Program-made: the position numbers and the translations under genes
In this document: positions 23,701 to 64,000 of the stretch, in pieces
How positions within the stretch are numbered: position 1 is the stretch's first letter
Layout: the number at the start of each line of letters is the position of its first letter
Notes under the pieces: generated by a model
Seen by the model: only the letters and a program-made list of their open reading frames with translations
Told to the model about the DNA's origin: nothing
Database searches by the model: none
NCBI GenBank assembly: GCA_963678705.1
Contig: OY783207.1
Span: 9,936,001-10,000,000 of the forward strand
Origin: Panorpa germanica
Taxonomy: Eukaryota > Arthropoda > Insecta > Mecoptera > Panorpidae
Direction of reading: 5' to 3'
Length of the DNA stretch: 64,000 nt

Positions 23701-25519
23701 GATTTGCAGATATTCCTATTGAATTTAATGTCTCATTGTTGAAAGGTGCTCCAAATCCTAGAGCTGTGTACTCTTCTAAGGCATGTATCCTAAATAACGT
23801 ATGAATTTCTTCTATATATTATTTAATTTATATAATAAAAACATTTTAACATAGGCTGTTGGAGAACCACCGCTATTTCTAGCTTCTTCGATATTCTTTG
23901 CAATAAAGGAAGCAATTGGCTTTGCTAGAGAAGACGCTGGGTTGGACCAATATTTCTATTTGGAATCGCCAGCTACTGCGGCAAGAATTCGGATGGGATG
24001 CCAAGATCATTTAACAAATAAGGTAGGAATGCAAAGTATTCTCGAATATGTATTGATTTGACTATCTATTGTTACTGGCCAACTGTTGACGCGTTTAAGT
24101 TTATTTAAGACAACACGATTATAGTCCAGCAGGCAGAAGCCGATTTATTAGGTGGTTTGTACAATTTATTGTTCTTGGTATGAAAGGAAAAGTTTGTAGA
24201 AATGTATAGACTTATGTACAACCTCAAATATGTAATGTGACAAACTACATCTCAAAACTGTTGTGAAATAATTCAATTAAGAACGTGTTAAATGACCTTT
24301 CCTTCTTTTAGTTCATATGCGAAATCAATTGTATTTAGTGACAAATGCCTTCTATCCTATCTTTAATTTTTAATAATTGTTTGTGGAGTTTGGGCTTTAT
24401 AGAGGATCTATAAGCTGCTACGGTGTACCTGCGATCTGTCGGCGGTATCCAAGTTCTCGAACGGCAAATGTCGCTCAGTTCCTTTCAATAGCTTAGTGGG
24501 CGCACAATTTGATTATGAAGGACCTTTTAGCTATTAAGTAATTAAAAGCAATTTTTTATTTATATCAAAAGACACAGCAAAACATCAGAACTTTTTTAGA
24601 TTACATTTATTCTAAACTACACTATTGAATTACATATAAATTGATTAAATACTTTAGGTAATAAGAATACTAATTACGACACTAGGTAAACGTAACTCGC
24701 GGTTTAAGTTATAAATAAAAATATGTGTAATTATTATTTTATGTAAATGCACCAAAAAGGTTAAGCGTGCTGTAGGTTTAAGTGTTGAAGCGATAAGAAC
24801 GAATTAGGAGCAAATGCGTAGTGTCGAACCCTAGAGAAGTGAATCGTATAAACAAAGGACGTTTACATAAGAAGACGTGGTTTGCCCACAGAGAGCAGTG
24901 TATTATATGAAACAACTAGATATAAAATATAAATGAATTGAGACAAAGAAATTAACATGACATTAATTAAAAATAAAAGCAACATATTGATATACAAATA
25001 TGAATATTGCATGCATTTATTAACAGTAATGATATCTATTTTATCTTCTATTCTTAATAAATGCAGAAGCAGATGTACTAGTTCGATGTTAAAGTTAAAA
25101 GTTCTTCTTCTTCGCTCATATGTCTTTGCATATTCTATTATATTCCTCAGAAATTGAGGTATTAAAGGTCTATTAAAATACTTAATTATTATAAAGACTA
25201 AGATTATTAATAGAAACTATAACTCAATTATTATAAAGACCGCCGAGCAGAATGGTGCGCAACGCCGGTATCCACAGAAGGGTTCTCTTGTGAGCGACTC
25301 CTTTGAACCGCTATTGATAGAGATCTTGATGGTATTAAATCACTTTAGCTTAATTTTCGAATTCGTATTTTGTAAGCATCAATATATTACACAGGAGCAG
25401 TAGTTTGTCAAGTTAATGCACCTGCAGGTACGATTCCTATTTTATTAAAATATTGTTTTCTATTACAGTTTGTGCAGCCACCAACAAGTTCTTTCGTACC
25501 ATGGAATATAGTACCATAA
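11735..25519 (+). CDS. XDH: Xanthine dehydrogenase (7 coding exons)
   Basis: Molybdo-flavoenzyme oxidising hypoxanthine to xanthine and uric acid with NAD+; in insects it serves purine excretion and eye pigment (rosy). Exons: 11735-11809, 18971-19125, 19348-21487, 22257-22565, 22638-23780, 23855-24022, 25469-25519; all join in phase, 1,346 aa, normal for the family. The first exon (MDVNADNKQ...FFVNGKK) lies 7.2 kb upstream; its ATG is the family start, just before FFVNGKK. Seen: plant-type 2Fe-2S cysteines C54, C59, C62, C84; second cluster C124, C127, C159, C161; FAD domain about 190-450; molybdenum domains with GGFGGKES (E819), NTAFRGFGG (R929) and GEPPLF (E1278, the catalytic Glu); C-terminus PWNIVP. 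The substrate residues fit XDH rather than aldehyde oxidase. Intron 5 starts GC. No broken frame is seen, so it is likely functional. Confidence 0.95.
12187..12440 (-). mobile_element. LINE 3' end fragment (I-like, RNase H type)
   Basis: The minus-strand frame matches the last ~60 residues of the element at 15545-16490 ([14 protein letters not shown], then [14 protein letters not shown]) with the same 3' untranslated end. 5'-truncated and inside XDH intron 1. Confidence 0.75.
12441..13186. other. XDH intron 1, no recognised element
   Basis: AT-rich intronic sequence; nothing supported. Confidence 0.4.
13187..13410. repeat. MITE with TTAA-type ends, fragment
   Basis: The left end TTAAGCCCCATTCTCACTC resembles the termini of 287-815 and 18403-18900. 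An inner inverted pair (AAGGTTTTAACCT) lies near 13217 and 13390. It sits in XDH intron 1. Confidence 0.45.
13900..14015 (+). mobile_element. SINE fragment
   Basis: Shares CGGGTTTGATCC and GGCTGTTATCAAGTTAAATT with the SINE at 905-1070. Located in XDH intron 1. Confidence 0.4.
14200..15281 (+). mobile_element. hAT transposon relic with perfect 8-bp TSD
   Basis: The ends are inverted: CAGCGGTTCTCAAA on the left, TTTGAGAACCGCTG on the right, the classic hAT terminus. ATCTAATA flanks both sides (14192-14199 and 15282-15289), a perfect 8-bp target duplication. Near 14855-15000 the plus strand keeps the degenerate C-terminus of a ZBED5/FAM200-like transposase ([18 protein letters not shown]; a stop and frame shifts follow). 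Length is 1,082 bp, much shorter than an autonomous hAT, so it is internally deleted and dead. A 17-bp unit (near ACTCACTCCATTCGCAAT) is repeated around 14795-14840. It lies in XDH intron 1. Confidence 0.88.
15545..16490 (-). mobile_element. LINE 3' part with RNase H (I-like clade)
   Basis: The 219-codon minus-strand frame (15675-16334) is the end of a LINE ORF2: RNase H with [20 protein letters not shown] (the conserved His/Asp region), then a zinc-knuckle-like segment [16 protein letters not shown]. The 3' untranslated end (TGACAAATAAAAGTCAAGG) is shared with 12187-12440. Reverse transcriptase and endonuclease are missing, so this is a 5'-truncated copy. It lies antisense in XDH intron 1. 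Confidence 0.85.
17060..17700 (+). mobile_element. Jockey-type LINE fragment
   Basis: C-terminal part of a jockey reverse transcriptase: [34 protein letters not shown], then, in another frame, a degenerate continuation ending near [13 protein letters not shown]. Frame breaks occur around 17388 and 17430. The 5' part is lost. Related fragments are at 31880-32640 and 42140-42880. Confidence 0.85.
17701..18402. other. XDH intron 1, no recognised element
   Basis: No gene or repeat boundary supported. Confidence 0.4.
18403..18900. repeat. MITE with TTAA-type ends, copy 2 (inverted)
   Basis: Reverse-complement relative of 287-815. It ends CAGTGAGTGAGAATAAGGC followed by TTAA; its left terminal repeat is lost. 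It finishes 70 bp before XDH exon 2. Confidence 0.65.
24023..25468. other. XDH last intron
   Basis: A 1.45-kb intron between the GEPPLF exon and the 17-codon terminal exon. I see no gene in it; two short diverged GC-richer stretches (about 24420-24540 and 25230-25330) may belong to one repeat. Confidence 0.5.
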
Positions 25520-26692: not shown

Positions 26693-29600
26693 CTAATAAA
26701 CCGGATCTGGTGTCGGTATGTTGTTTAATCTTCTCAGTCGATGCAGTAATGAAGGATGCGATTCATCCAACAAATAATATAGCCAATCGTATGTCGGGCA
26801 TGTCAGATTGTGAATGTGTAGTTTAACTAAGGCTCTCTTAAGAGGTTCAGCATATCCCATTGACTTAGCATAGTCGTCAGCATCAAATTCCATAATTCTT
26901 GTTATAAACACCAGAGTAATACTGCTCAAAATATTAATAGGAGCCATAACTAATTCTAGCACTGTAAAAAGTCTGATGAGAGCTGGATCATCTTGGTAAA
27001 AACCAAATGCTCGTAGTAAAGGTTTCACACTCCTTAAATGTGAATAAACTACTAAAGATATCAACGAATTTATCTGAACAAAAAGTAATCGAATTAGTAA
27101 GTGGTTCCTCTTCCAATGTCCGAATTCGTGACAGATAATTGCCAGAATTTCTTCGTCCGAACAAATGGGGTTGCTGTTGGTTATTTCATTCGGTTCTGAT
27201 CCAGTATTTTCCCGTTCTACAAGTGTATCATACAAAACAATTCTTTTTGAGTCTCCAACGCCAGCAAAGTAAGCGTTTGTATGCCGGGAGTGGTCGGACG
27301 CTTTAAAGACGTATATATTTTCTGAAGGAAAATCGACAGATGTTGCTAAGGTTTCGAAGCCCCTTTTCAGAGATCCTTCCTGGAGTTTTGTTGTTATCAA
27401 CTGCAAGCTAAACTCAAACATCGGTATGCTACAATTGATCACTAGGCATAGCGCACAAGTAAATACCCACAAACATATGTAGAATCTTTCACCAGTGTAT
27501 TTGATTATGAAGACTGTTATTGCTGATATCGGAAGAAAGGCAGTCTGGGAAACCAGTAAGTAAGTGATGCGGTCCGAAAGGAACATGCTGATGGTCTGCA
27601 TATTGAATCCATGCTGACCTTCCACAACAAAGGTGTCGAAGATTAATATTGGTAGGTCTATTAATACATTTGACCCGTTGTTTAAAAACATAAATATCAT
27701 ACTGCTAACAATTTCGCTTCTGATTCTCGTATATTTTAATAAAATATCCCTCGATTTTTTCCAAAGATACGCGTTCCAACTGAAAATGACGAAAATTGTG
27801 TTGATTGTCTGAAAAATATAAAAACAACTTGTTAAATCTTTTCTAGTAGAAAAGTTTGTTGGTTGAAATATTGGCTAATGGTTGTAATCTGTGGTGTATA
27901 TATTTTATGAGTCAATTAGATTCATTGAATAATGTGCTTGTGTCCTCATTTTTTAGTGGTCGATTTTCCAATTGTTGATTGAAATTGAAGTAAATAAATG
28001 TGTATTGGTGTGTCAATTTTATTAAATATCTAAATATTGACGGAGATATAGCAATTAAAATTTGAATTGTAGTTTTAGCGCTAGAAATGGTCGGCCATAT
28101 TTGGATGAGGTGAAATGCATTTTAACGTCAGTTATTTGTTGAGTAGATCAGTGCTGTGGTAATGTTCTGTAGCTGTTGGTAGTCAAATAATCAAGTCAAG
28201 TCAAAGAGTAAAAGTTTTTATTTTCTTTAACCCTGCTAAGGCAGACATAATATTGAAATTTTATTGTTCCTTGTAAATAATATTTGATATTTTGATATAT
28301 AAATACATATAGCAGAGATTTGTGAGCAGTAAGGTTGGCAGCGATTGTGATGTCACATGCATTTGGAATGTTGTTCAACGTTGAATCCCTTTAATAATTA
28401 AACAGACAAAATGACTTTTATAATTGTTAATATCTCTTAACATATAAGAAGTTATTAATAAATAATTGAACATTTGGGGTTCTAGTAACCCACTTTATCA
28501 ATATGTAGTACAGTTTTATAGAAATTAAGACATAGGACACAAGCCTTTTATTTGAGATATATCTTCTCTGACATGTTCTGATTGTCATATTTCAGCTATG
28601 ATAGTAATTTCAGAGATAAAATCTGATAAAGACTTTATCGTGCAATCCAGTTACTTCGCTTTGACCGCATGATTCGTTTTTACTTTTAGTCCGCGCTGAT
28701 TAGATCGCGTAAAGTTGAAGTTTTCGTTTTGCACATAACATTTTATAAAAGAAATTTAAAAAGTGGTTACAGTGTGCAAAAGATTTAAATCAAGTTATGG
28801 AAAACTAAAATCGTATACATTACTTAAAGTGCCAAAAGATCGAATATTCAACCAAATAGTAATTATCATATACAGCCCTAATTTCAAAAATCCGTAACAA
28901 AATTCAAGGTTACACCAATTAGGATTATTCCAATTACACAAAATTCTATGCCACATTAAGATTTTATTTTTAATGTTAGTTCTCTTTTCTCAGAAGGCCA
29001 GCCACAACAGATGTCAAAGGAAGTAAAGAAAAGAGAGGCTGAAATAAGCAGAAAAAAAATCTTTCCTGCGTCTCGCTCCTGACTTACCGCACACAATGAA
29101 GCACTTAGAAAAGACTGTGTCGGACAAAAATAAGAACAACTTCAAAAGCATCTGCTCATCACCATCTCCATCTTAGGTATCTTCATACCAAAAATAAAAG
29201 TAAAAATAATAAATTCCAAAAGTTGACAAACAGCCTACAGCAAATCCATCGAAAAGAGCCTAACGGCAATAGCCGATGATATTTCTAAGCAATAGCTTTG
29301 CAGATCTTTTAAGATATCACTTGTCCACAGATATCCACAGCTTCGTGCCAGAAGATATTGGTACATGAACAATACAGTAGTACAAAATGGATTAAACAAG
29401 ATTCTCAAGGAATATCCTTGCTGAAGAACGGGGAGAAGGGTCAGAATTGGAAGAAATTTGTGTGACGTAATTTATGGAAGTCAAGTAAAATGAATTCCGT
29501 GTTTGTTTGGGACACCCTATTTGAAAATTCGCGTGGCCTTATTTTAAAAGAAAAGTACATACACAATAATACAACGTTCTCCCAATATGTAACAACGTTC

Positions 29601-32890: not shown

Positions 32891-34021
32891 CTAATTCTTG
32901 GAATGATCTACCCATCGAACATATTTTTGTTTTAATTCATATAGATTAAAGTATAAATAATTTCTATCTACGTCATAGTATACAGATGATATTTTCTCAG
33001 ACATTTCACTAAACTTAATGTCAGATACATTTTCAGGTTTACTAATTCTAGCACCATTATTCCCAATGTACCAATTTTCCAATAAATTTGCAAAAATCCA
33101 CGTCTCTTGGGTAACATTGAAAGCAACTACTTCTCCGCCAGCTAAATACGCTCCCCAAAAGCCGAAGGTCCCAGCAGTAAGTATAGAATGATTGCACGAT
33201 GCTAGTAGAGCTAAATCCAACGCCGGAGAATTTTCTTTAAACAACATCTCAGACAGATATATATTTTGTCTTATTGGCAGTAAGTGCCGACGAGTCCATG
33301 AATTGTCGTCAGTAGCTGCAACGAAAATAACGTTTTTGTACCTCCCTTCAAAATGTTCTATAGCCGCTCTATAATAGTTTATATTTGCGTAATATGGATT
33401 ATCTGTCCTTCGAACATGGATACCAACAAAAGTAAATTCCTTCGGAGATGCTCCTTCTACTTCACCATTTATTCTGTTCAACCTTACAGCCTTCTGAAGC
33501 ATTTCTTGACTCTTTTTTATTAAATGTGCCTTAAAAATTAGCAGTTTTTTAAAAGTTTCTCTGGATTTAAGAATTTCATATATTATTTGTAAATGTAAAT
33601 AATGACAAAAACTTCTTAAAACAGCAATTTTATGTCTAGCAATTATTTTATAATGATTTTTATCGGGTTTACAATGATTATAACAGTGCTGTATTTGATT
33701 CATAGATGGTATTGCCACTTCAAACACTTTGCTTAACCTTTCATACAGACATGGCGGTAAATAGGGTTTCCATTCATTTCTTCGGCGGGATTCAATCCAA
33801 AGAACTACGTATTCAAAAATATGGTTACCGAGTCTTCCCCCTGCACGAACTGTAATAACTTGACGGGTGCATTCATGTTGTACAAATAAGTGTGGATATT
33901 CTTCATTTTTCGGATACCCAGAACATAGAAACTTGGTAAACTTCAGGTCACAAAAATTCGTTTCGAAGAGAAATGAATATCCAGCAGAAAATGATATTAA
34001 TAATATCAGTAATTTTCGGTT
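32891..34021 (-). CDS. GT11 alpha-1,2-fucosyltransferase-like, main exon
   Basis: Golgi type II enzyme family transferring fucose from GDP-fucose to galactose in alpha-1,2 linkage. Seen: one uninterrupted exon of about 376 codons with a hydrophobic N-terminal segment (LLILLISFSAGYSFL), then AGGRLGNHIFEYV (family G-R-L-G-N-Q-x-F-E-Y), GIHVRRTDN (the GDP-fucose motif H-V-R-R-x-D) and TFGFWGAYLAGG (family T/S-F-x-W-W-A-A-Y-L). The length fits the family. The 5' edge is a strong splice acceptor on the minus strand (TTTCTTTTTTGCAG ending at 34022); no ATG lies in frame before the hydrophobic segment, so a short upstream exon must supply the start and I could not find it. A relic of a second copy of the 3' end is 2.7 kb upstream. 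The substrate is unknown. Confidence 0.85.
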   Translation of the reverse strand, partial: NRKLLILLISFSAGYSFLFETNFCDLKFTKFLCSGYPKNEEYPHLFVQHECTRQVITVRAGGRLGNHIFEYVVLWIESRRRNEWKPYLPPCLYERLSKVFEVAIPSMNQIQHCYNHCKPDKNHYKIIARHKIAVLRSFCHYLHLQIIYEILKSRETFKKLLIFKAHLIKKSQEMLQKAVRLNRINGEVEGASPKEFTFVGIHVRRTDNPYYANINYYRAAIEHFEGRYKNVIFVAATDDNSWTRRHLLPIRQNIYLSEMLFKENSPALDLALLASCNHSILTAGTFGFWGAYLAGGEVVAFNVTQETWIFANLLENWYIGNNGARISKPENVSDIKFSEMSEKISSVYYDVDRNYLYFNLYELKQKYVRWVDHSKN

Positions 34022-34329
34022 CTGCAAAAAAGAAATTACATTTGTAAAGTTAGGCGGTGTGAGAATTCGTATTACTTATATTGTTTTTCTATTATTGTTT
34101 AAATGCTTAAAGGGTCCCTGGGTTTATATGAAAAAACCATAAGAACATACAGTTTATATAGAACGGTAGGACAATAGAACGATGGAGCGATATTTATTCG
34201 GTACTGAAATCGTATATGGTATCTTTTAAACAGCGTCTACAAAGTTTTTCAAATTTTGATATTTTATAGAGAACGAATATCTACGTCATTGAAATTTTGC
34301 CTGAATTTCCGTGAAAGAACTTATTCTAG

Positions 34330-44200: not shown

Positions 44201-47200
44201 CCTTCCCTATGTTCTATCTTTTCCTATTCTTTAACTTCTTTTCGCTACACTTGCTTTCTCTTTATTTTCCTGGGACCATCTTTGTCCATTTTTCCCACAC
44301 CTTCATAATTCGCTTATTATACCTCCTTTTGCACTTATTCTCTGCTTAAACAGCCAGTAGTATTCTCTCTTCATTTCGTTTTTATGTCTCTCCTTCCATC
44401 CACACTTTCCTGTATTTTTACCTCCTTTTTTCTGCCCATATTCTCAGTCCTCTTGTACTTCCCTTTCCTACCTTGCTAAATCTTGTTTCTTATCCGGATA
44501 GCTTTACCTTGCGATCGCAATACTATTACATATTTTTATATCAATATTTCTCACTCCTTACTTTTGTCTTCTTTACCTTGTCTATCTAAATATTTTATCG
44601 CAGCTCATCTCTTATCCACTTTTCACTTTTCTCTCTCTCTATTTGATTTCAATTTTAGTTCTCTTTTAACACCTCATTATTTTTCCTATGTCTCCTCTGT
44701 TTCGTTCTCCTTTTTGCCGTGGACGGCTTTCTTTCTACACTTTCGACGTCTCATTATCTCTTTCTCTCTTTGCTTTCTTTCGAAAGAGAATATTTGAGTA
44801 AGAATAACTATAAATAATAATACTTGTTTTGCAGAAAATCCAAGTGCATGGAAATCAAGGAAGAAACAATTCTGGACGTAGCAGTTGAATATATATTAGT
44901 AACTTGCAATGCGAGTCATTCAACTTTTAACTATTCACGGGAAGTTTACAAAGATGCTCACGCCATCGTACCTGTAAAACCAGATGTAAGAACTCGCTTG
45001 ACTGAGTTTAAATCGAAAAGAGCAGAGAAAAAAGTAGTGACACCACCAAGTGTCTTAATGTTTGCGATCGACAGTGTCTCTCGACTTAACTTTAGACGAA
45101 TTATGTCGCGAACTTTGCAGCATCTTCAAGCCACCGGTTGGGTTGAACTTAACGCGTACAACAAGGTATGGGTATATCACACTGGAACTATTACTTGATA
45201 CATTCGGCCTCTTCAGCGGTGTGTGTTGTGTCGCATTAGCACGCTTTATCCTGAGAGGAAGATTCTCCTTTAAAATTTATCAATGCACCATTGTGCCGTA
45301 GAAGTATGTACATCCGTATTCATAATATGGTTCAAACATATGTATATAAAAGTGCCGCACATCGTTATACTCTAGAGTTTCAAAAATCTCGCCACGTTCT
45401 TGTTAGTTTAGAAAACAATAGGTATCGTTTTTGTCTCGTCTCGTCTCTTCACATCTCGTTTTTGTGAGAACTTACTCCTAAGATAGTCCTAAACAAAGTA
45501 ATTTATTATATTATTTCGGCTAATTATTTCTTTTATTCCAAATTTTTCACACACTAAGCATATCGCTTTTTTCTCACCATTAATTGTATCAAATTTAAAA
45601 GAAAATTTAAACTTTGAAGAATTTTTTTTTATACACAGTTGATCAACTGGTTCAATTTCACTTTACGCATCATTACTTTCATATAATCTCGGCCCTTTTG
45701 TCAATTTGACACTACTAACACCTACACTCAACGACATTTTTGCGGCAAAATGTCTTCAAACAATCGCATTGTAAATAATTTATATTCACATTTATTTTCC
45801 CTTAAAACATTCGTTTCCGTTCGGCTACAAAATGTTGTAAAAGACAAAATTATAAAACAAAATATTTAACAGATGTTTGTTTACCAGATTTTATATTTCG
45901 TAAATTTACGACCTAAGGTTGAACGTTTATATTGCTGTTAGTTTATTTTTGTAGCAATTTTTTTTAAATAACGACAACAAGACCAGAAACGAGACTCTCG
46001 CCGTATATGATCTCGGTGCTAGTGTGAAGCCCTAGTGATTGAACATAATTAATTTTAGGGAAGACTATTACATCTTATAATTGATTTTGACGAAGCTAAT
46101 TAAATAATTCCGACCCCGACTGTGAGAGTGCCCTAAAAATACAACTTGTATACTGAATGGTAATTTTTTCAATATTTGTTCTTATAGATTGCAGATGTCA
46201 CCTACCCCAACGCAATGGCTTTGTTTGGTGGTTATAATTACTCGGAAAGCTTCGGTTTATGTCGGCCACGAGAATTAGGAGGCTTAGATAATTGCTCGAT
46301 AATTTGGAGCAAATTCCAAGATAATGGTTACGTCACTGCATACGTAGAAGACGCACCTACAATAAATACATTTAACTTTAGAAAGAAAGGATTTTTAAAA
46401 CAACCGACAGATTACTATTCTCGGACATATTTTATGGCCATGGAATCATCTTTACCTTTTAAATCTGATTCGTTCTGCTTGGGATCCATTACGGAAAGTG
46501 AACGAATATTGAAGTATATGATTGATTTCACACACACTTTTAAGAGTGATCCATATTTTGGAATATTTTGGATAAATTCGTTATGCCATAATTCTCTGGA
46601 AATGCCACCATCCATGGATATAAAAATCAAAGACACATTTGTTAAACTTTCCAATGCTGGCATTTTAAATAATACTATCATATTTTTCTTCAGTGATCAT
46701 GGAATTCGATTTAAGAAAGTAAAGCTCTTACCTACTGCTGTCTTCGAAGAACGCTTGCCTTTCATGCATGTTTGGATTCCCCAGAAGTTTCGTGTAAGTC
46801 ATCCTGAACTCTTCGCTAATCTTGTACAAAACTCCAACAAATTAACGACACCATACGACATTCACATGACGCTTCAACACATACTGAGTCTTTTTAGCAA
46901 TGACACGCAACAGCCTAGTAGAGGATGCCCGAAATGCAGTAGTATTCTTAAACCAATTCCATTCGATAGGTCATGTGCAGAAGCAGGCGTCAATGTCCAT
47001 TGGTGTGCTTGTGACGTATATGAGCGATTGAGAGTAGATGATGCTAGGGTAATTGCAGTTGCAGAATTCGTAGTCCTTCATATCAACAATGTTATATTTG
47101 ATGTGAGCAAGCAATATCCTTTGAAGTTGAAGCGAATCTTATATGCAAGTGTTATGAAGAATGGTACCATTGATCCTAAATCCAAAGAGACTTCTGTTTT

Positions 47201-47321
47201 ACATACTTTCTGCGTTGGATTAGTCACGATCCCTGGTAATACACAATTTGAATCTTCTGTAACAGTGGATAAAAATAATACATTTGAAATTGAACGATCA
47301 GTTAACAGACTTTATGATTAG
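41272..47321 (+). CDS. DUF229 (alkaline phosphatase/sulfatase fold) membrane protein
   Basis: Family of type II membrane or secreted proteins with the alkaline-phosphatase/sulfatase fold; reaction unknown, common in insects and nematodes. Exons 41272-41403, 43270-43532, 44835-45165, 46188-47321 join in phase: 619 aa, family-typical. Exon 1 (44 aa) carries a signal anchor (about 14-32: CLAIPLVVGFLYFLA); just upstream is an acceptor (AG at 41245-41246) of a 5'UTR intron. Seen: cysteine-rich region (SCRIL, LTCCYEV, KSKCM); PPSVLMFAIDSVSR with metal-site D211; YNK/TYPN; FFFSDHGIRF (D412, H413), then FEERLPFMHVWIP and LTTPYDIHMTL, all classic DUF229. Where relatives have SHDxxN this one reads CHNSLE. 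AATAAA is at 47502. Intron 1 holds an antisense jockey piece, intron 2 a long pyrimidine-rich tract, intron 3 a hAT copy. Frame intact; likely functional. Confidence 0.9.
42140..42880 (-). mobile_element. Jockey-type LINE fragment
   Basis: Minus strand: TTMATFADDNTILAVGNTID (intact FADD box), then KVWRIKLNESKSIHVNFTN, a frame break, then KIKYRNMYWLIRRCSELNIE, TYGVQLWGCTKKSN and ENITVTQMLLDIVQI to about 42146. Antisense in DUF229 intron 1. Confidence 0.88.
43750..43890. repeat. Dispersed repeat piece (family of 37548)
   Basis: CATTCCCTTCTTATGTTGAG and GAATTTTACTCTAAGTGATA match 37760-37840. Lies in DUF229 intron 2. Confidence 0.5.
43965..44790. repeat. Long pyrimidine-rich tract in DUF229 intron 2
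   Basis: More than 800 bp strongly biased to C and T on the plus strand, without a simple repeat unit (for example CTTCTCCATGTTTCTCTCC, CTTTTCTCTCTCTCTATTTG). It ends 44 bp before the exon 3 acceptor. Confidence 0.7.
45371..46034 (-). mobile_element. hAT-type element, copy 2
   Basis: Diverged copy of 39045-39799, same orientation; left terminus lost, right terminus GTGTGAAGCCCTA kept. In DUF229 intron 3. Confidence 0.75.
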
Positions 47322-48045: not shown

Positions 48046-51000
48046 ACAACGAAATGCGTAGTTTCAATAGTACATAGTTTTACAATCGCAATGATAAAAA
48101 CAACTAGTTATTACACTACATTTGTTTGCAAAACTCTAACTATTTACGTCGATGACAATAACAATATTACACCTAATAATATAGTTAAACTGGATTACAA
48201 TTCACAATAATTTAACAACTAGTTAACTAACATATTCCTGAATGTAAAAAGACGCCATACAACTCAACATACAAGTATCTACAAGTATCAGTAATTTGCG
48301 CGCGAAAATGTACCGTCAGCATACAATTGGTCCAGCGAACGGCTTTAATCAATTCTCTTACTGTTCGGTGAATCCGTGTGCTTACTACAATGAGAGCGAA
48401 CGCATTAGCGTAGTCCACAATCATTACAAAGCAGTGTTTGTAACATTCAAACATAACTTAATATTAGCAATGTTCTTAACCTATTTTTACAGAGTTCTTA
48501 ATAATAATTATTTCTTAAACTAATTATATTTATTCTTAAATTATTTCCCACATTTGTCATCGTCTCAGCAAAATTTGATTATGGTCCCACGGGACAGATT
48601 ATTAATTATGTTGACTTTAATAAAGAAAAAAACTTAAATCATTCGTAAAACTTTTAATAATTCATGACAGATTATAAATATAAATAGTTCAATAATAAAT
48701 TAATTCGATTGAGAGTGCTTCATTTGCAAAGCCAATCGCGTAATTTAAATAATGTCTGATTTGGCTGGCACATATACCTACGAGATTAACTTAAGTTATA
48801 AAGTGCGGTTGCGTTAAAGGTACCAGCACGACACTGACTCTCTTTATTCCTATCGAAGGACAATATCCCTATCAAATAGTCCTTATATACATATGAATTT
48901 TTTCTTTCCATTGAACCTTCCTCAGGATAAGATACCATTCGCTCAAAATTTTTGCTTATAATTCCACTGCCATTTTCATCTGGACAAATTTCTGTTATTT
49001 CTGAAAAATTAATTTTAACTTAATATATGATGAAATGATACTGTTCTTCAAATTGGTCCAACGTACCTGCCGTAACGTTAGTGAAACCTATGTAATCCTG
49101 TGAATAAAGAGCATCCTTTGGAATATCCTGCAAAAAACAATAAGATATATAACATGTACTTTTATATATATATATATATAATAAAATGTAATTCCACAAA
49201 AATAATAAGTAAATAATTCTCAAGTTTTGTTATGTTCAATTTTGTATACTTCTTCTAGATAAATATCGGAAATGATTAAACCCAGCTTCAATAAGCGCGT
49301 TCCAGCAGTTCGAATTCATATGTTAACCATACTGGGGCTTAATAAGTTTTATGGTTACATGAACACAACCTAGGTTAAAATAAGGAACGGTAAACTTACA
49401 TAAGCAGTATTGCTGAGTATCTTCTGATTGAAGTATAGGCAAACTGGACGAATTATATATGAAGGTACTAAAACTTTTTCCATTTTTAACAACCAAAACT
49501 TTTTACCCTGCCTGTTTGCTTCTCTTCTGAAAGTTTACAATATAATAATAATAAACTAGTTCTATTGAGTACAGTCACAGGCAGTTGATAACTTACATAT
49601 CAAAATCGTACCCGATGTCGCTATAGAACGCGAATTTGTCCTTCTCATTTTGCCATCCTAAAGATAGCTTTCCCATACCTACTGCAAACATAGAACTGTT
49701 CCTTAACTTTCCTTCTGCATCAGTAAAGCATTTTTTATCTGAAAGAAAGAAGGATCTTATTAGTTAATGTTACGGTTATTAGATGAATGATGAAATCTTT
49801 TATACCTGTAATGATTAATTTGTTTTCTACGTTATCCCAATCATCAGAGTCAATAAGTGTTCCTCTACATATTACAACAGGATTTGAACCAGGATTCTTC
49901 TCATAAATATAAACTTTCCAAGGTTCCAAAGCTACTTTTAAATACTCCTCACCGTATTTATTTTTAATTTCATTTTCCATTTCTATATTGTCATTCACAT
50001 CTCTTGTTATGTAGGTCCTACCGCACTCTAAAATAATGGAAGTTATTTGTCCATTCAGTAACTCATATAACATCAAACAAAGAAGTGAAGTTCACAAAGA
50101 GATCGTAAGGAATTTATCTTAAGTTAAGAGTGAAATAACTACAGACATACGAAGGAGCCTTATGTTGGCTTCATGTCATGGATTACCGGACAAGCTACAT
50201 GTTAGCTACTTACCACATTTTACCAGTGCACAATGCAGAGTCCACAATTACTAACTTACTTAAAAATCCATAATCTCAACGATTCGATGTATCTGTATTT
50301 ATGCTGTACTATTTACTCATCTCGCAAAACAGTTTTTTTTATAACGATCTAAAGTTTTCGTGCACTTTCGTCAGTAATGCAGAAATTACTACAACATCTG
50401 TGTCTAAAAAGAAGCTTTCTTATCTCAAAGGAACGCTTAAAGTTATTCTAATATGACTTTATTAACATCAATTACATACGAATTAATGTCTTAATAATGT
50501 TCTTTTATTCTCCGTGCATATTTCTAATAAGATAAGGGATAACTAAATTGCTAAAATAATAGATTCATAAACTACGGTAGTATGATCAAGACTGGTTACA
50601 ATACATAAATTAAATTAAATGATCCTCCTAAATAATGGACAAGATGTCGTTGCAACAGACACTTTTAAATGTCAAAAACTTTAGAAATATGCAAATTAAT
50701 TTCGGTGTTTCTGTTTACTTGTAAGAATTACTTATACCAATGATATCATATACCGAATAATCTTCAAAAATAGATAAATTCATATACCTGATTCACAATT
50801 TACTAAAGGAAAGTTCCATGTGGAGTCTTCTTCGCACGTAAGAATATTATAGAATAGTTTAGGACGTAGGAACCCAGAAAGACAGGTAACAGTGACCTCA
50901 GTTCCAGGAACTAGTGCATCGTTGCAAGATACGTTAATGGTTTTATACAACATGCATTTTAAGGACGTTCCGTCATAACGCTGAAGTGGCTCACACGGCT

Positions 51001-51050
51001 CTGAAATTACAATCCAAATGTTCTTTACCATATCCTGAGGTAAATTTAGA
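48046..51050. repeat. Segmental duplication, left copy
   Basis: Aligns by eye with 59552-64000 (window edge), exons and introns alike, from CACAACGAAATGCGTAGTTT onward. Differences: the right copy has an extra ~1.2 kb (59778-61010) and a solo LTR (62714-63058); the left copy has ~110 bp in an intron (about 49240-49350) that the right copy lacks. Confidence 0.85.
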
Positions 51051-54000
51051 CAAAACAAATCGTTAACATAAGATAAATGGAGACTGTACTTTTGCAACTT
51101 GGTAGAGTGGGAAGCCATTGACCTTCAGAACAATAAACGGTCGAGCCAGAGGTCAAAACAAAGTTTTTGTTACATTTATATTCTAGCATAGTTCCATCTT
51201 TAGTTGGTGTCCAAGCTGGTGGCACTGTTTCTGAAGCGTAAATTGTGTAACTTCCATTTCCTGGTTTAGTAGGTAGAATACAACTTCCGGCGAGCACTTC
51301 GGCCCTGCAAACATGTATGTGTTTACAATAACGAAAAGAAATTTGTATCTTAACACAACTTTGACTTACGATTCTACGCCATCAACCTTGGTACATAATT
51401 CCATAGACTCATCCGAACCATCATCACAGTCAACTATCTGAAAGTACCAAAAAAGGGTTACAACTCAAATATCTACAATTGATGTACCTATCAGAAGTAA
51501 ATGGAAGATTATTGTGCCTTTATACCTACATGATAAATACATATTCAATAATTTTGTGTCTTTCTCTTAAAGTTGTCTAAAACTAAATATATGTTCAAAA
51601 CACGAAAATGAAGTGAATAATATTGATCTTACCCCATCACACATATCTTGCATGGTAATTCTTTTTCCGGAAGTACATATAAACACCTCCGGTTCTCCAT
51701 AAGCCTTCTGATCCTGTAGCCATGGTAGGAATTGACTTACAGATGTAAACAACGTATACTTGTACGAATCGCACAATCCATCGTCATTAGTTGGTCCAGT
51801 AGACACAACGCCCCTCAGATAGAAGGCATTCTTAACGTCATCATAGAAGATCAAACCACCCCCGCTGTCTCCATGACAAAGACTGGAACCTTAAAGTTAA
51901 ATATCAAGACTAATATCAATTAAGTACCAGAAACATGAAAGCAGGCAATATATACTCATTAGAAAATCATTATAAAATTAATGACTAATACGCAATTTTG
52001 TGGTAATTAAGCGTTATTTATATCTGCATCAAACTATTGTAGTTTGCGCCGTTTTTTCTAAACCTTTCGCTTTGGCTTTAGGCAAGACGTACGCAACGTA
52101 AGACGTTAGCGTAATGCCTCCGCACTTCTCGTATCAGCTCTCGGATAAAGAACAGCTAGCGGCTGCTCACCGAGGTCAACGAACATGTTGTACAAAACAT
52201 AGTGACGAGATACAAATTTAAAATGGTGAATAATATTTTATTATTTAGTGAAAATGTAACAGAATGTATGTGAGTGATCACCAATGATAAATCCGACGAA
52301 CGCAATTTGAGCCAAACTCAGATTACTCGCTAATTGCTAATGATATTTATGCTACAGTATACACTATATTCCCATATAAGTACAATTGGCTTACTGTTTC
52401 CAAATCCTGCACAGATTTTATCAGCTGTTACATACGGCCTAAAATTTCCAGGAGAATTGTTCCTGCATTTCGTTCTTGAGACAACTGGCATGTTCAACTG
52501 CATCAGCTGTGGGCTAAGTGCGCCTTCTTCTGTTATCTTTCCCCATCCTGGAACCTAATTTCATATTCTGTTGTTAAGGTCTGAACTTTTTCTGACAAGA
52601 TAGAGCAGATCAGTAACTAACTAATTTTAGGTACTAACTTTTCCAAGAACTCCCGGCTGTATGCTGTCTTCGCTATCGTCAGTCCAGTCAACGCAAATAG
52701 GCTTGATCATCTGATTGAATTCTATAACGTTCAATAAGACCACTATTGCTATGTCCTGCGCATAACTTTGGACGATATCGCGGTAACTGTAAATTTAAAA
52801 TAAGATACTAAGATAATAAGATACCGCAATTAACTAGTGCTTATATAATTGTTTAGTTGGTAAACTTGCTTAGGATGTAAAATAAGTTGTTTGACGTCTG
52901 TGTAAATTCCAAATGTATCATCGCTATTCATCCAGTCACTAAATTCTTTCCCATAACCAACTGCAAATGACTCAGCATTTCGGGCTTTCTGATTCTCGCC
53001 ATCCCAGAAACAATGTGCAGCTGATAATTAAACAGAATGATCAACACTTTTATTAAATAGCAGTATATCTTCAAAAAACCTTTACAACAATTTACCTGAT
53101 ATAATTTTATTAGCAGACACAATCGTGCCACCACAAATAAATCCAGGTTCATTAGGTATAGCCGAATGTTGTTTATCGTAGATGGCTGCATGCCAAGGGA
53201 ATTGATGTTGATGTGCTTTGTGGGCGTTGATTGCAAACTTAGAACCCATGGGAGTTGTTCCGCATTCTAGAATTTAAACTAACTTTACTATGTATAAAGA
53301 ATTTGCATGATTATTGAAGATAGTTATTACCAGGATTGCATAAAAGGAATGAATGTTCCCATTCGCCATTTTCCAAGCAGTAAATCGTTTCTCCAGGAAG
53401 TACAACAGGTTTGTAGTTTTCCTTGCAAGTTAAAAATGCTTTCGTTCCTGCTTGTGTTGATTTTTCACAAGAAACTTGAACTCCGTGTAAATTACAACTG
53501 TATTCAATTGAAGAAGACTGCAGCGGCTTACAGGTTCCTGAAATTTTGTTTTTGAGGTTTTGAGGTATATTTTAAAGGTATCATAAAGGGTGATTATCTT
53601 CCTCAATATGAGCAATTTCTTCTGTTTATTAATTGAAAATTTATAAGATGCATTATAAAATAAACAACTTCTTACATAAAATCGTTAACTAACTTACTTA
53701 AGCGAGCTATTTTATCTTCTGACCACTTTCCCTCTGAACAGAAAATTCGATTTGCGGTACTGAGAGCATAATTAGCCGTGCAATGTATGTCTAAGAATGT
53801 GAATTCCTTAACTACGGTTCCAGCTATTGGTAAAGCAGTTTCCCCCACGATGGAGTAGCTGCCGTGTGGTGGTATTGGAGGTAGTATACAGTTCCTGGAT
53901 ACCTCAACTGCGTCTCTACGTAATCTGAGATGCTGCAACTCACTTATTGTATCTGATGTTGGTAAAGATAGACCTACAATTTTTAAAGAGAAAATTTAAT

Positions 54001-55075
54001 GGCATAACCATTCGTGATGATCTAGAATTGAATTGATAAGTAGCCTTTTTCTTGGCTATTCGCGTTCATTGATGAATGTACCAGATATTAATATTTTGTA
54101 CTTGCCTCTAGAAATAGATCTAAAGAGGAATAGCTGATTAAGATACGGAGTGAGCCGCTGACCTGACAGTAGACGCAGCTGCATCTGTATACTGTCAGGT
54201 TAGCAGCTCCACTGATCTGGACCGGACACACGATCATGAGTACCTACCGTGACTCAAGCGAGTAGCAGCCTAAAGTCCTGTTGCATTGTGACGTTGTTTT
54301 TTTTCTTAAATCTAAATTTAAATACCCTACGCAGTCAGAGTAAGTAGTTATAGATAATTAGTAGAATATTAAAAATAACTGCTCGGTAACATTTTCTTTT
54401 GGATTTTATCTAAAACAAGCAAAACAAGAAATGTCTAATCATAAAATGTTCCACTTTACCTAAATTCGTTTTAAATATTAAGTAGGAAACTTTTTATAAT
54501 CTTCAAAATAAATTATAATTTTTATAATAATTTGTTCGAATTTGTTTTCTGAGAGTTTAGAATAACATTTTCTATGTTAAACGATATATATTTCTTGTAG
54601 CTTTTGTAATCTGAAATGTTACTTTATCATTTAATTGTTGTTTTTTTAGAAAAACTAAATACATTTGAAATCATATGTGGAATGGTTAAAAGTGATAAAT
54701 TCAAAGCAGTGCTGGAGGTGAATGAACAGGTGGTGCCTGACAGAACAATAAATTCTTTTATTAAAAATAGAAATAAGCAGAATGTATAAATTTAGAAATA
54801 ACGTTTAATCAAATCAAGGAGATATTCATTGCTACAAAAATAACAAAGCGTTGTATATTTGGTAATACTTTTTTAATATGTTCAGCGAGTCTATACATTC
54901 TGTATCTTGTTATTTCAATTGAATACATACACGGTTATTAGGATTTTGACTCAATGCCCATTAACACATACGATATAAACATAATCATAGCTAATTAGTA
55001 AAAAAATTGAGTACCTCCAAGAAGTCCGCAAGATGCAATCAGTGTCAACAGTAGGCACATCTTCATGGTCAACAT
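48786..55075 (-). CDS. Modular serine protease, two ModSP-like units fused
   Basis: ModSP/HP14 family: secreted hemolymph protease that starts Toll and melanization cascades (known); this role is inferred here. Sixteen exons, all in phase, 897 aa: 55075-55015, 53973-53698, 53537-53331, 53266-53096, 53020-52870, 52786-52639, 52554-52395, 51889-51633, 51437-51370, 51304-51090, 51000-50788, 50027-49806, 49738-49597, 49526-49400, 49127-49067, 49000-48786. Order: signal peptide (MLTMKMCLLLTLIASCGLLG); Sushi ~50-114; Wonton-like ~115-178; protease ~182-450 with H241 (AAHC), D300 (QDIAIV), S400 (GDSGG) and Ser at the S1 position (S394), so not trypsin-like; LDLa ~455-492 with four cysteines; Sushi ~502-570; Wonton-like ~572-640; protease-like ~643-885 with K719, N836 and no catalytic Asp. 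Exon 8 encodes both the end of protease 1 and the LDLa start, so the fusion is not an annotation artefact. Intron 5 starts GC. No cDNA support. Confidence 0.88.
49155..49180. repeat. Short (TA)n in intron
   Basis: About ten TA units; the homologous position in the right duplicate (61885-61942) has expanded to about 29. Confidence 0.8.
54149..54213. other. 65-nt near-perfect hairpin in protease intron 1
   Basis: Left arm 54149-54171 (ends ACCTGACAGTA) pairs with right arm 54190-54213 (starts TACTGTCAGGT). The stem has roughly 21 pairs with one bulge and one mismatch, and the loop contains a further GACGCA/TGCATC pairing. Could be a pre-miRNA-like fold, or two transposon ends. Confidence 0.6.
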
Positions 55076-59366: not shown

Positions 59367-59787
59367 CCCCATAATACAATAATGTCTTTATTATGGATAG
59401 TTTAACGTATAACTCCTTAATTAATTTTTCTTCATTTAATTATTTCGCAAAAACAATTACATTAAAATTAATAAGTCAAAAAAAGAGTTCACAATGATAA
59501 CGCTTAGTTAAATACAATGCATAGGTTTGAAAACCTTCTAACAACGCTTGCATATCACAACGAAATGCGTAGTTTCAATGGTACATAGTTTTACAATCAC
59601 AATGATGAAAACAACTAGTTATTACACTACATTTGTTTGCAAAACTCTAACTATTTACGTCGATAACAATAACAATATTACACCTAATAATATAGTTAAA
59701 CTGGATTACAATTCACAATGATATTAACAACTAGTTAACTAACATATTCCTGAATGAAAAAAGACGCCATACAACTCTGTGTATATC

Positions 59788-61000
59788 CAAAGATAATATA
59801 TATACTCTAGATCGGTAACTCTAATGTTAAGCTATGGTCCTATGATATATTCATGTTATTTGTCAAGGACTTTTGCCTTTGTTCTACATGAAGTTCTTGC
59901 AAGACACAAAAAAGCGGGAATGAGTAGATGTTTGAATTGTTATAAATATAAAAAAATTTATAAATTAAAAAAAACACGCAATATTTAGGTAACAATGTTT
60001 ATTGTAATTAATGTATTTGTATATACATAAAAATTCTTCCTAAAAAAACAAAAATATTAAATTATTTAATTAATGTAATTGCATATAAACCAAAATCCTT
60101 CTTGATTTTTGATGATGTAGTTGTTTAGCTAGCTAGTTAATTCATCTGCTGCCTATTGCCTCTTACATTTCTTTGGCAGCTCCCAATATATAATGCTTTG
60201 GCCCCAATTTATAGTCCTGAAAAGTATTATAAAGTCTAATAAAATAATATGTTATATATGTATAATTAACAATGACGCCAGTGTTAGAGTTAGTGTATTT
60301 GCTTTAAAAGTAATAAATAGTTTAAAAGTGCAAATTTAATTGAAGTTTCTCGTATATTATACAAATAGCGATAAGAAAAATAATAGTTGGCAGGTAAAAT
60401 ATTAATAGTTGTTATTATCTTAATTGAAAGTAAAACACTAATCACTTAGAAATATAACAATACGGCAGCCATATGCATAAAACTCGGAGATGCTCGTAAA
60501 TATGACGTCAGAGGAGTAAGATAAATTTGTATATTAGTAAGAGGCGTATTTAGAAGTTTCATTAAAGACGTTCCTTAAAAGAAGGTAATCCAAAGCAAAA
60601 ATTCAAAAATCTATTACTATTTCTACATTACAACATTTCCTAATTTTATTCATAAAAAAATGTAATTAATTAATATAAAAGATCGAATTCTTCTAATGGT
60701 GACTCAAAAGTACTTATTCGAAATAATTATAACTAAAATCAACATTAAAGGCAAATATAAATATTTGGTTCTTTGATTTTCTATGTCTGTTCATTTTTAT
60801 TTCCTTTTAAATAAGATAATTTAATTTTTTTAATATTCTAGGGCACTTAAATAAATCTTTCTGAAGTGGTACCTGGATTAAATGGCGTATGTCTAAAAAT
60901 ATGTACAGTCAAGCCTATAAACTTTCTTATAAAATACAGGGCAAATCTTAGTTCGACATGAAGTATAGTACTAGTTGTCCCTATATGAGTTACTACACCA
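59788..61000. other. Extra block in right duplicate, no gene recognised
   Basis: About 1.2 kb of AT-rich DNA absent from the left copy. No frame with a family resemblance and no clear inverted ends. Confidence 0.45.
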
Positions 61001-61509
61001 TGTGTATATCTACAAGTATCAGTAATTTGCGCGCGAACATGTACCGTCAGCATACAATTGCTCCAGCGAACGGCTTTAATCAGTTCTCTTACTGTTCGGT
61101 GAATCCGTGTGCTTACTACAATGAGAGCGAACGCATTAGCGTAGTCCACAATCATTTCAAAACAGTGTTTGTAACATTCAAGCATAACTTAATATTAGCA
61201 ATGTTCTTAACCTATTTTTACAGAGTTCTTAATAATAATTATTTCTTCAACTAATTATATTTATTCTTAAATTATTTCCCACATTTGTCATCGTCTCAGC
61301 AAAATTTGATCATGGTCCCACGGGACAGATTATTAATTATATTAACTTTAATAAAGAAAAAAACTTAAATCAATTATTCGTAATTCATGATAGATTTGTA
61401 AATATAAATAGTTAAATAATAAATTAATTCGATTAACAGTGCTTCATTTGCAAAGCCAATCGCGTACTTTAAATAATGTCTGATTTGGCTTGCACATATA
61501 CCTACGAGA

Positions 61510-61882
61510 TTAACTTAAGTCATAAAGTGAGGTTGCGTTAAAGGTACCACTACGACACTGACTCTCTTTATTCCTATCGAAGGACAATGTCCCTATCAAA
61601 TAGTTCTTATATACAAATGAAATTTTTGATTCGATTGAACCTTCCGTAGAATAAGATACCACTCGCTCAATAATTTTGCTTATAATTCCACTGCCATTTT
61701 CATCTGGACAAATTTCTTTTTTTTCTGAAAAATTAATTTTAACTTAATATATGATGAAATGATACTCTTCTTCAAATTGGTCCAACGTACCTGCCGTAAC
61801 GTTAGTGAAACCTATGTAATCCTGTGAATAAAGAGCATCCTTTGGAAGAGCCTGCAAAAAACAATAAGATATATAACATGTA

Positions 61883-61945
<63 letters not shown>

Positions 61946-64000
61946 AAATGTAATTCCACAAAAATAATAAGTAAATAATTCTCAAGTTTTGTTATGTTCA
62001 ATTTTACATGAACACAACCTAGGTTAAAATAAGGAACGGTAAACTTACATAATCAGTATAGCTGAGTATCATCTGATTGAAGTATATGCAAACTGGACGA
62101 ATTATATATGAAGGTACTAAAATTTTTTCCATTTTTAACAACCAAATCTTTTTACCATGCCCGTGTGCTTCTCTTCTGAAAGTTTACAATATAATAATAA
62201 TAAACTAGTTCTATTAAGTACAGTCACAGGCAGTTGATCACTTACCTATCTAAATCGTACCCGATGTCGCTATAGAAAGCGAATTTGTTTGTCTCATTTT
62301 GCCATCCTGAAGATAGCTTTCCCATACCTACTGCAAACATAGAACTGTTCCTTAACTTTCCTTCTGCATCAGTTAAGCATTTTTTATCTGAAAGAATGAA
62401 GGATCTTATTAGTTAATGTTGCGGTTATTAGTTGAATTACCAAACCTTTTATACCTGTAATAATTGCTTTGTAATCTAGATAATACGCATCTTCAAGAGT
62501 AATAAGTGTTCCTCTACATATTACAACAGGATCTGCGCCAGGTATCTTCTCATAAATATAAGCTATCCAAGGTTTTAAAGCGCCTTTTAAATACTCCTCA
62601 CCGTATTTACTTTTAATTTCATTTTCCATTTCTATATTGTCATTCGCATTTCTTGTTATGTAAGTCGTACCGCACTCTAAAATAATGGAAGGTATTAGGC
62701 GATTCAGTAACTCTGTTGGGAAATATTCTCGCAGAGTTTGAATAAAAGATTATATTTATAAGATGTATATTTTAATAAAAAGTATTCTGTATGTAGTATT
62801 AGCACTGGTTTCACAAAGAGCGTCCTTTCTGTACCACGTTAGGATTCACAAGGATTTTCTTGCCTCATGCGCCATGACGAAGCACTCTCGGTACTTTTAG
62901 TTAGTGTTACCAATCGCAGATGGCTCATGTGTTCCTTGTACTAGTACTACGATGGTATCTACATTAATATCTACACTGGTAACTTATTTTACTATGACAA
63001 CACATATATTTATAATTAGCGGTGAATACAAAACTAATTATTTACTATAATTACAACAAACTCATATAACATCAAACAAAAAAGTTAAGTTCACAAAGAG
63101 ATCGTAAGGAATTTATCTTAAGTTAAGAGTGAAATAACTACAGACATACGAAGGAGCCTTATGTTGGCTTCATGGCATGGATAACTGGACAAGCTACATG
63201 TTAGCTACTTACCACATTTTACCAGTGCACAATGCAGAGTCCACAATTACTAACTTACTTAAAAATCCTTAATCTCAACGATTCGATGAATCTGGATTTA
63301 TGCTGTACTATTTACTCATCTCGCAAAATAGTTTTTTTTATAACGATCTAAAGTTTTCTGAACTGTCGTCAGTAATGCAGAAATTACTACAACATCTGTG
63401 TCTAAAAAGAAGCTTTCTTATCTCAAAGGAACGCTTAAAGTTATTCTAATATGACTTTATTAACATCAATTACATACGAATTAATGTCTTAATAATGTTC
63501 TTTTATTTTCCGTGCATATTTCTAATAAGATAAGGGATAACTACATTGCTAAAGTAATAGATTCATAAACTACGGTAGTATAATCAAGACTGGTTACAAT
63601 ACATAAATTAAATTAAATAATCCTCCTAAATAATGAACAAGATGTCGTTGCAACAGACACTTTTAAATGTCAAAAACTATAGAAATATGCAAATTAATTT
63701 CGGTGTTTCTGTTTACTTGTAACAATTACTTATACCAATGAAACCATATACCAAATAATCTTCAAAATTAGTTACCTGATTCACAATTTACTAAAGGAAA
63801 GTTCCATGTGGAGTCTTCTTCGCACGTAAGAATATTATAGAAAAGTTTAGGACGTAGGAACCCAGAAAGACAGGTAACACTGACCTCAGTTCCAGGAACT
63901 AGTGCATCGTTGCAAGATACGTTAATGGTTTTGTACAACATGCATTTTAAGGACGTTCCGTCATAACGCTGAAGTGGCTCACACGGCTCTGAAATTACAA
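61510..64000 (-). CDS. Tandem paralogue of the modular protease, 3' part
   Basis: Six exons of a second gene whose 5' part lies beyond the window: 63988-63776 (Wonton-like, starts after an intron at the edge), 62676-62455, 62387-62246, 62175-62049, 61851-61791, 61724-61510 (stop). Every exon has the same length and phase as its partner in the neighbouring gene (213, 222, 142, 127, 61, 215 bp). It encodes the pseudoprotease end: KKC replaces AAHC and CPDENGSG replaces the GDSGG region. The protein ends SLYDLS. All six frames are open, so it may be expressed. Whether its upstream part also carries an active protease cannot be seen. Confidence 0.82.
61885..61942. repeat. (TA)n microsatellite
   Basis: About 29 TA units in an intron of the second protease gene; expanded relative to 49155-49180. 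Confidence 0.95.
62714..63058. mobile_element. Solo LTR, copia-like (fossil)
   Basis: 345 bp beginning TGTTGGGAAATATTC and ending TTACAACA, with AACTC on both sides (62709-62713 and 63059-63063), a 5-bp target duplication. TG...CA ends and the TGTTGG/CAACA termini resemble Ty1/copia LTRs. No internal region, so it is a solo LTR left by recombination. Absent from the homologous intron of the neighbouring gene, hence younger than the duplication. Confidence 0.8.

Follow-up and report, generated by a model that had tools for sequence, protein, structure and literature searches.

In the beetle Tenebrio molitor, seven polypeptidases have been found as transcripts, and four of them (pSerP448, pSerP900, pSerP333 and pSerP382; PMC11172050, Table 5) share the layout Sushi(2)-SP-Sushi(2)-SPH within 837-892 residues, the first protease domain being chymotrypsin-like and the second catalytically dead (PMC11172050). 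Expression of the Tenebrio polypeptidases is mainly in pupae and adults, most of the proteins were grouped in a clade with MSP, and the authors propose modulation of the live domain by the dead one (PMC11172050); what is said here of this and the other cited papers holds for the parts of their text that were covered. The related ModSP/HP14 proteins carry an N-terminal array of about 4-5 LDLa modules (PMC1761132, PMC7215089), with more in Ostrinia (PMC10036332), and Manduca HP14 binds its recognition protein through these N-terminal LDLa domains (PMC7215089). Here, we describe a gene of the insect Panorpa germanica, located in a window of 64,000 bases (contig OY783207.1, positions 9,936,001 to 10,000,000), for which the best reading of the sequence is a single gene made of two homologous ModSP-type units, the second of them catalytically dead. 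An earlier annotation made from the letters alone (the sequence-only reading) took one-unit proteins to be the only ones known, a premise that is incomplete given the published two-unit polypeptidases of Tenebrio (PMC11172050).

All coordinates are positions in the window, and the gene lies on its minus strand. Rebuilding the gene from its splice sites gave a model (55075..48786, minus strand) of 16 exons and 2694 coding bases that encodes 897 residues in one open frame, with a single stop at the end. The borders are GT-AG in 14 of the 15 introns and GC-AG in intron 5 (donor at 52869), where this border was picked because it is in phase and yields the protease-like HPNYRDIV. A further signal-peptide-like start lies upstream at 55374 and is not used in the model. 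The exons are as follows.

55015..55075, minus strand: exon 1, with the start codon and a stretch that resembles a signal peptide (residues 1-20; hydropathy 2.8, simple rule)
53698..53973, minus strand: exon 2, Sushi of unit 1, without the fourth cysteine
53331..53537, minus strand: exon 3, Wonton of unit 1 with its six cysteines (C115-C179; module as in PMC10036332)
53096..53266, minus strand: exon 4, start of protease 1 with the activation site F193/AINA (the slash marks the cut)
52870..53020, minus strand: exon 5, protease 1 with H241, followed by the GC-AG intron
52639..52786, minus strand: exon 6, protease 1 with D300
52395..52554, minus strand: exon 7, protease 1
51633..51889, minus strand: exon 8, closing part of protease 1 with S400 and, in the same open frame, the first part of the LDLa
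51370..51437, minus strand: exon 9, remainder of the LDLa, without the first and third standard cysteines
51090..51304, minus strand: exon 10, Sushi of unit 2
50788..51000, minus strand: exon 11, Wonton of unit 2 with its six cysteines (C574-C640)
49806..50027, minus strand: exon 12, first part of the pseudoprotease
49597..49738, minus strand: exon 13, pseudoprotease, K719 at the catalytic His position
49400..49526, minus strand: exon 14, pseudoprotease, K773 at the catalytic Asp position (placed by its distance to C793)
49067..49127, minus strand: exon 15, pseudoprotease, with 99 bases fewer than exon 7 (likeness to protease 1 not significant)
48786..49000, minus strand: exon 16, pseudoprotease, N836 at the catalytic Ser position, and the stop codon (likeness to protease 1 not significant)

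A domain search of the 897-residue product, which the sequence-only reading had proposed as a check, was carried out with Pfam and matched Trypsin (residues 194-449, whole-protein E 1.1e-36), Sushi (E 1.1e-17, with three stretches passing, not four) and LDLa (residues 458-490, 28.8 bits against a cut-off of 24.1). The Wonton is a Sushi-like module with six cysteines instead of four (PMC10036332), and six cysteines stand at its place in both units. The order of domains is a predicted signal peptide, Sushi, Wonton, protease, degenerate LDLa, Sushi, Wonton and pseudoprotease, such that the order Sushi-Wonton-protease(-like) is present in both units; together with the open frame, this upholds the in-phase chain of 16 exons that the sequence-only reading had assembled. 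The single LDLa keeps four cysteines and has lost the first and third. In standard LDLa modules these two pair with each other, and the loss is thus a coherent one. No sign of an LDLa elsewhere in the window was given by a simple motif scan, which is blind to intron-split modules, and Pfam and the scan agree with the earlier description of no LDLa ahead of unit 1 and one degenerate LDLa ahead of unit 2. The idea of missing upstream LDLa exons was dropped, as this simple scan, with the same blindness to intron-split modules, found no motif for them.

The catalytic triad of protease 1 is complete (H241, D300 and S400, read by hand from the sequence and alignments). Positions 189, 216 and 226, read by hand from an alignment with thrombin, correspond to S394, G423 and T437, which suggests a chymotrypsin-like or related specificity. 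Cleavage at the activation site SKF/AINAHKA would leave Ala as the predicted new N-terminus. Ile or Val is the usual new N-terminus after activation of a serine protease, and the activity of protease 1 may consequently be weak or conditional. The "active-looking" protease of the sequence-only reading therefore stands as far as the triad is concerned, and its ready activation is doubtful. In the preceding Sushi of unit 1, the unpaired C85 could permit a disulfide-linked dimer.

In unit 2, all three residues of the triad are lost (K719, K773 and N836, read by hand and from alignments), and no recognisable activation site is present. Taken alone, the second protease-like domain (residues 643-897) matched no Pfam family at E up to 1 and gave a single weak match in the PDB (E 0.23); a two-row profile of the dead domains from this gene and the neighbouring copy described below picked out one stretch of urokinase in the PDB (E 1.1). 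Its N-terminal half is nonetheless homologous to protease 1 (z 21.9, with none of 1000 shuffles reaching the score), and hhalign aligned the first half with protease 1 at a probability of 97.1 over 76 columns. The cysteines C644, C696, C720, C793, C832 and C883 correspond to pairs 1-122, 42-58 and 191-220; pair 168-182 has been lost along with 33 residues, the amount by which exon 15 falls short of exon 7. For the C-terminal part, exon phases and the placement of cysteines point to the same fold, with the equivalences set by hand from exon borders and cysteines, because MAFFT, when aligning the units, put the C-terminal half in the wrong place.

The two units are clearly related to one another (BLASTP E 7e-35, 84 of 297 columns or 28% identical). 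From the Sushi to the last protease exon, each contains six introns, and their phases (1, 1, 1, 2, 0 and 1) agree at 6/6 places; the first three of these introns stand at aligned residues, and the last three near the expected places in weakly aligned or unaligned sequence. Exon 8 reads through from protease 1 to the LDLa with no stop in between, the very link between the halves on which the sequence-only reading had relied. A simple hydropathy rule found no signal-peptide-like start in 50788-51640 (exons 9-11 and introns 8-10, with intron 11 outside the scan), and neither AATAAA nor ATTAAA occurs between 52242 and 50509. The matching phases, the open exon 8 and the lack of a separate start or poly(A) signal in these stretches together support a duplication, a fusion and one transcript, and the matching phases fit the tandem duplication and fusion that had been proposed for the origin of the gene. 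If two genes had been taken for one, transcripts would end after protease 1 and a second gene would start before the LDLa. Retention of intron 8 would indeed add about 20 residues and a stop, as such an arrangement might use, but the open exon 8 and the signals missing from the scanned stretches speak against it, as do the single Tenebrio transcripts with the same layout (PMC11172050), and we consider it very improbable.

A second copy of part of this gene, which the sequence-only reading did not mention, emerged when the gene was compared with the window's own frames. This copy B of exons 11-16 lies at 63988-61510 on the minus strand, at the right edge of the window. The match starts at 64000 within intron 10, and the window shows exons 11-16 only. 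All six exons have the same lengths as in the gene described above (copy A), GT and AG are kept at the borders seen, and the frame is open with no indels.

63776..63988, minus strand: copy B exon 11 (Wonton), 3/213 bases differ
62455..62676, minus strand: copy B exon 12, 33/222 bases differ
62246..62387, minus strand: copy B exon 13, 8/142 bases differ
62049..62175, minus strand: copy B exon 14, 9/127 bases differ
61791..61851, minus strand: copy B exon 15, 2/61 bases differ
61510..61724, minus strand: copy B exon 16, ending in the same stop, 19/215 bases differ

Across the pseudoprotease exons 12-16, the copies differ at 71 of 767 bases without an indel or a stop, and 54 of the 255 residues of the dead domain are different (79% identity). 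The three replaced triad residues are identical in both copies, and the six pseudoprotease cysteines are kept. An allelic duplication in the assembly was considered and dropped, as the dead domains are 79% identical and the copies stand in tandem. Part of the 3' flank is also duplicated (59535-59777). Two stretches of copy B have no counterpart at copy A and are perhaps insertions: 345 bases in intron 11 (62714-63058) and 1229 bases in the 3' flank (59778-61006), the latter with no other match within the window at E 1e-5. A TA repeat at 61885-61941, inside intron 14, is longer in copy B than in copy A.

Between the copies, exons 12-16 have accumulated 61.5 replacement and 9.5 silent changes. 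Their replacement rate exceeds the noncoding rate (61.5/599 against 72/1869, p 1.1e-8), the latter being counted over alignable bases inside BLAST matches, which leave out part of the intron 14 repeat as well as the two stretches of 345 and 1229 bases; their silent rate is not above it (p 0.21). Exon 12 counts as 28/221 inside the BLAST match, where a gap pair was placed, against 33/222 by direct count, and intron 14 differs at 1 of 161 bases. In exons 13-16, 36 replacement changes over 426 sites stand against 2 silent changes over 117 (p 0.0076), and a pairwise codon model gives an omega of 4.3 (p 0.02) for this split, which was chosen afterwards. The replacement rate of these exons is above that of all noncoding bases (p 1.9e-4) and above that of introns 13-15 (4/297, p 1.9e-5). 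The adjoining Wonton exon has a single replacement change over about 160 sites (p 1.7e-4 for the contrast). The replacements are clustered, with 10 falling within one stretch of 12 residues, a density reached by 0.0006 of shuffles. The dead domain thus seems to change unusually fast, and these figures are suggestive of diversifying selection, which is plausible and not proven, gene conversion and relaxed constraint being its rivals.

The account that we favour, and hold to be probable, is that the gene encodes a two-unit secreted serine polypeptidase, which arose when a ModSP-like ancestor (LDLa-Sushi-Wonton-protease) was duplicated in tandem and the copies fused, and in which the dead domain aims or restrains the live one and has since diversified. 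Expressed as one protein, protease 1 with its intact triad would remain attached to the dead domain by way of the LDLa and the second Sushi-Wonton pair, and would do the cutting after cleavage behind F193. The dead domain would provide a binding surface that aims or restrains protease 1 on a substrate, an inhibitor or a foreign molecule. This surface would have diversified after the later tandem duplication, and the partner that it meets would then be changing. Regulation of the live domain by a tethered dead one is possible, as already proposed for the Tenebrio proteins (PMC11172050). A bolder version, which we put forward tentatively and consider somewhat unlikely, casts the dead domain as a fast-diversifying recognition module with a positively selected surface next to a constrained Wonton, and the tandem set as a small repertoire of differently aimed proteases for use in defence or in reproductive conflict.

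Several observations weigh against the account of an aimed and diversified dead domain. Protease 1 has Ala in place of Ile at its activation site, the Sushi of unit 1 is without its fourth cysteine and leaves C85 without an evident partner, and the C-terminal part of the pseudoprotease is not significantly protease-like by sequence (z 1.2 and 1.9, the score being reached by 123 of 1000 shuffles for residues 807-897 and by 63 of 1000 when exon 16 was compared with exon 8). Relatives were confirmed in none of the candidate stretches from viral contigs (0/1) or prokaryote contigs (0/32), in collections not meant for insect genomes. The dN/dS of exons 12-16 is 1.85 (Fisher p 0.10; about 1.5 to 2.1 by other counting methods), the split that isolates exons 13-16 was made after the data had been seen, and two copies are few. 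Noncoding rates are uneven (28/749 in intron 11 against 4/297 in introns 13-15, p 0.046); since introns 13-15 are the less diverged, this local yardstick favours diversification. One could instead imagine a decaying unit 2, a jobless dead domain in which the fast change reflects lost constraint and gene conversion with an unseen third copy. The loss of three catalytic residues and of 33 residues would agree with such decay, and so would an omega for the whole dead domain that does not differ from 1 in a pairwise codon model (1.55, p 0.23). Exon 12 alone has an omega of 0.73 with its silent sites diverged too (7.5/50.6), and intron 12 is likewise strongly diverged (7/67), so that this block may have a separate history (mosaic or gene conversion); the 10 changed residues out of 12 are also what a conversion tract would give. 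However, when 71 changes were placed at random in 5000 simulations, 97.5% gained a stop and only 125 (2.5%) stayed stop-free as the 767 bases observed here have done, and 4% of these 125 had no more silent changes than the real copies do (p 0.04). Loss of constraint alone does not give a replacement rate above the noncoding one, as seen in exons 13-16, and the six cysteines have been retained in both copies. We therefore regard decay as unlikely.

The sequence-only reading had instead seen a ModSP-type immune initiating protease, with the tethered pseudoprotease controlling autoactivation or acting as a scaffold. The ModSP-type units are in its favour, as are the modulation proposed by the Tenebrio authors and their grouping of most polypeptidases with MSP (PMC11172050), and Phe as the activation residue would suit a chymotrypsin-like enzyme that cuts its own kind. 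The name "initiating protease" is nevertheless doubtful, because the N-terminal LDLa domains that bind the recognition protein in HP14 (PMC7215089) are absent here, and Ala rather than Ile at the new N-terminus also argues against it. An immune initiator role thus appears less likely than had been held, and we consider it quite improbable. A part in development or reproduction is possible by analogy, since the Tenebrio polypeptidases are expressed chiefly in pupae and adults (PMC11172050).

The remainder of the window was sampled by a Pfam scan of 10 of its 33 open reading frames in addition to the gene, and the frames recognised are listed here.

32891-34075, minus strand: glycosyltransferase family 11 domain in a 394-codon frame (E 1.6e-28)
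19325-23804, plus strand: frames with aldehyde oxidase / xanthine dehydrogenase domains
26693-27874, minus strand: M48 CAAX prenyl protease domains in a 393-codon frame
44821-47321, plus strand: DUF229 / sulfatase-like frames, whose end is some 1.5 kb away from the gene's 3' end
3408-3986 and 15675-16490, minus strand: mobile-element remnants with Mos1-type HTH and RNase H / zf-RVT frames

Why proteases that do not cut are kept is an open question in animals. With a dead protease tied to a live one in one chain, as predicted here, the effect of the dead one on the live one becomes directly testable. The live-plus-dead layout in two units is already known from Tenebrio molitor (PMC11172050); what is new is the presence of the dead part also in a neighbouring gene copy, together with its seemingly fast change. 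The faster change of the dead part, if confirmed, would mark the side of the protein that meets a changing partner.

No two-unit Sushi proteases beyond Nudel and the proteins of PMC11172050 were met in the papers covered (PMC11172050, PMC10036332, PMC1761132, PMC4085338, PMC2375007 and PMC7215089), a scope that leaves subscription papers mostly outside; Tribolium SP14 is cited in PMC11172050, and the term is absent from the part of PMC2375007 that was covered. ModSP, Manduca HP14 and Tenebrio MSP share with each unit of the window gene a Sushi, a Wonton and a chymotrypsin-like protease. The window gene differs from them in having two units, the second dead, and no N-terminal LDLa array, and because this array is missing it is not a ModSP as defined. 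Nudel likewise combines live and dead protease domains in one chain with LDLa between them, examples being Ostrinia OfuSP104, Apis SP20 and Tenebrio pSerP1050 (PMC10036332, PMC1761132, PMC11172050). It has, however, several LDLa modules, shows no Sushi or Wonton in the published tables, is trypsin-like, and is membrane-anchored in Tenebrio. The window gene, with its Sushi domains, one LDLa and Ser at position 189, departs from Nudel in these three respects. We know of no Sushi-Wonton units in the human polyserases. Live and dead S1A domains placed in tandem within a single chain are what these share with the window gene (as cited in PMC11172050).

The closest likeness is to the Sushi polypeptidases of Tenebrio. 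At 897 residues against 837-892, the product is of similar length, has a predicted signal peptide, and carries two Sushi-type domains (here Sushi and Wonton) before each of two peptidase domains, the first chymotrypsin-like with Ser189 and the second dead. It differs in the LDLa between the units, in an activation site of F/AINA instead of the L/I that precedes each domain and is common to six Tenebrio proteins without being a defining trait of the group, and in a pocket of S, G and T instead of S, S and G or S, A and G. The second domain lacks all three triad residues, as Table 5 of PMC11172050 also shows for pSerP333. Likened by layout and not by a sequence tree, the window gene fits a Tenebrio-type Sushi polypeptidase.

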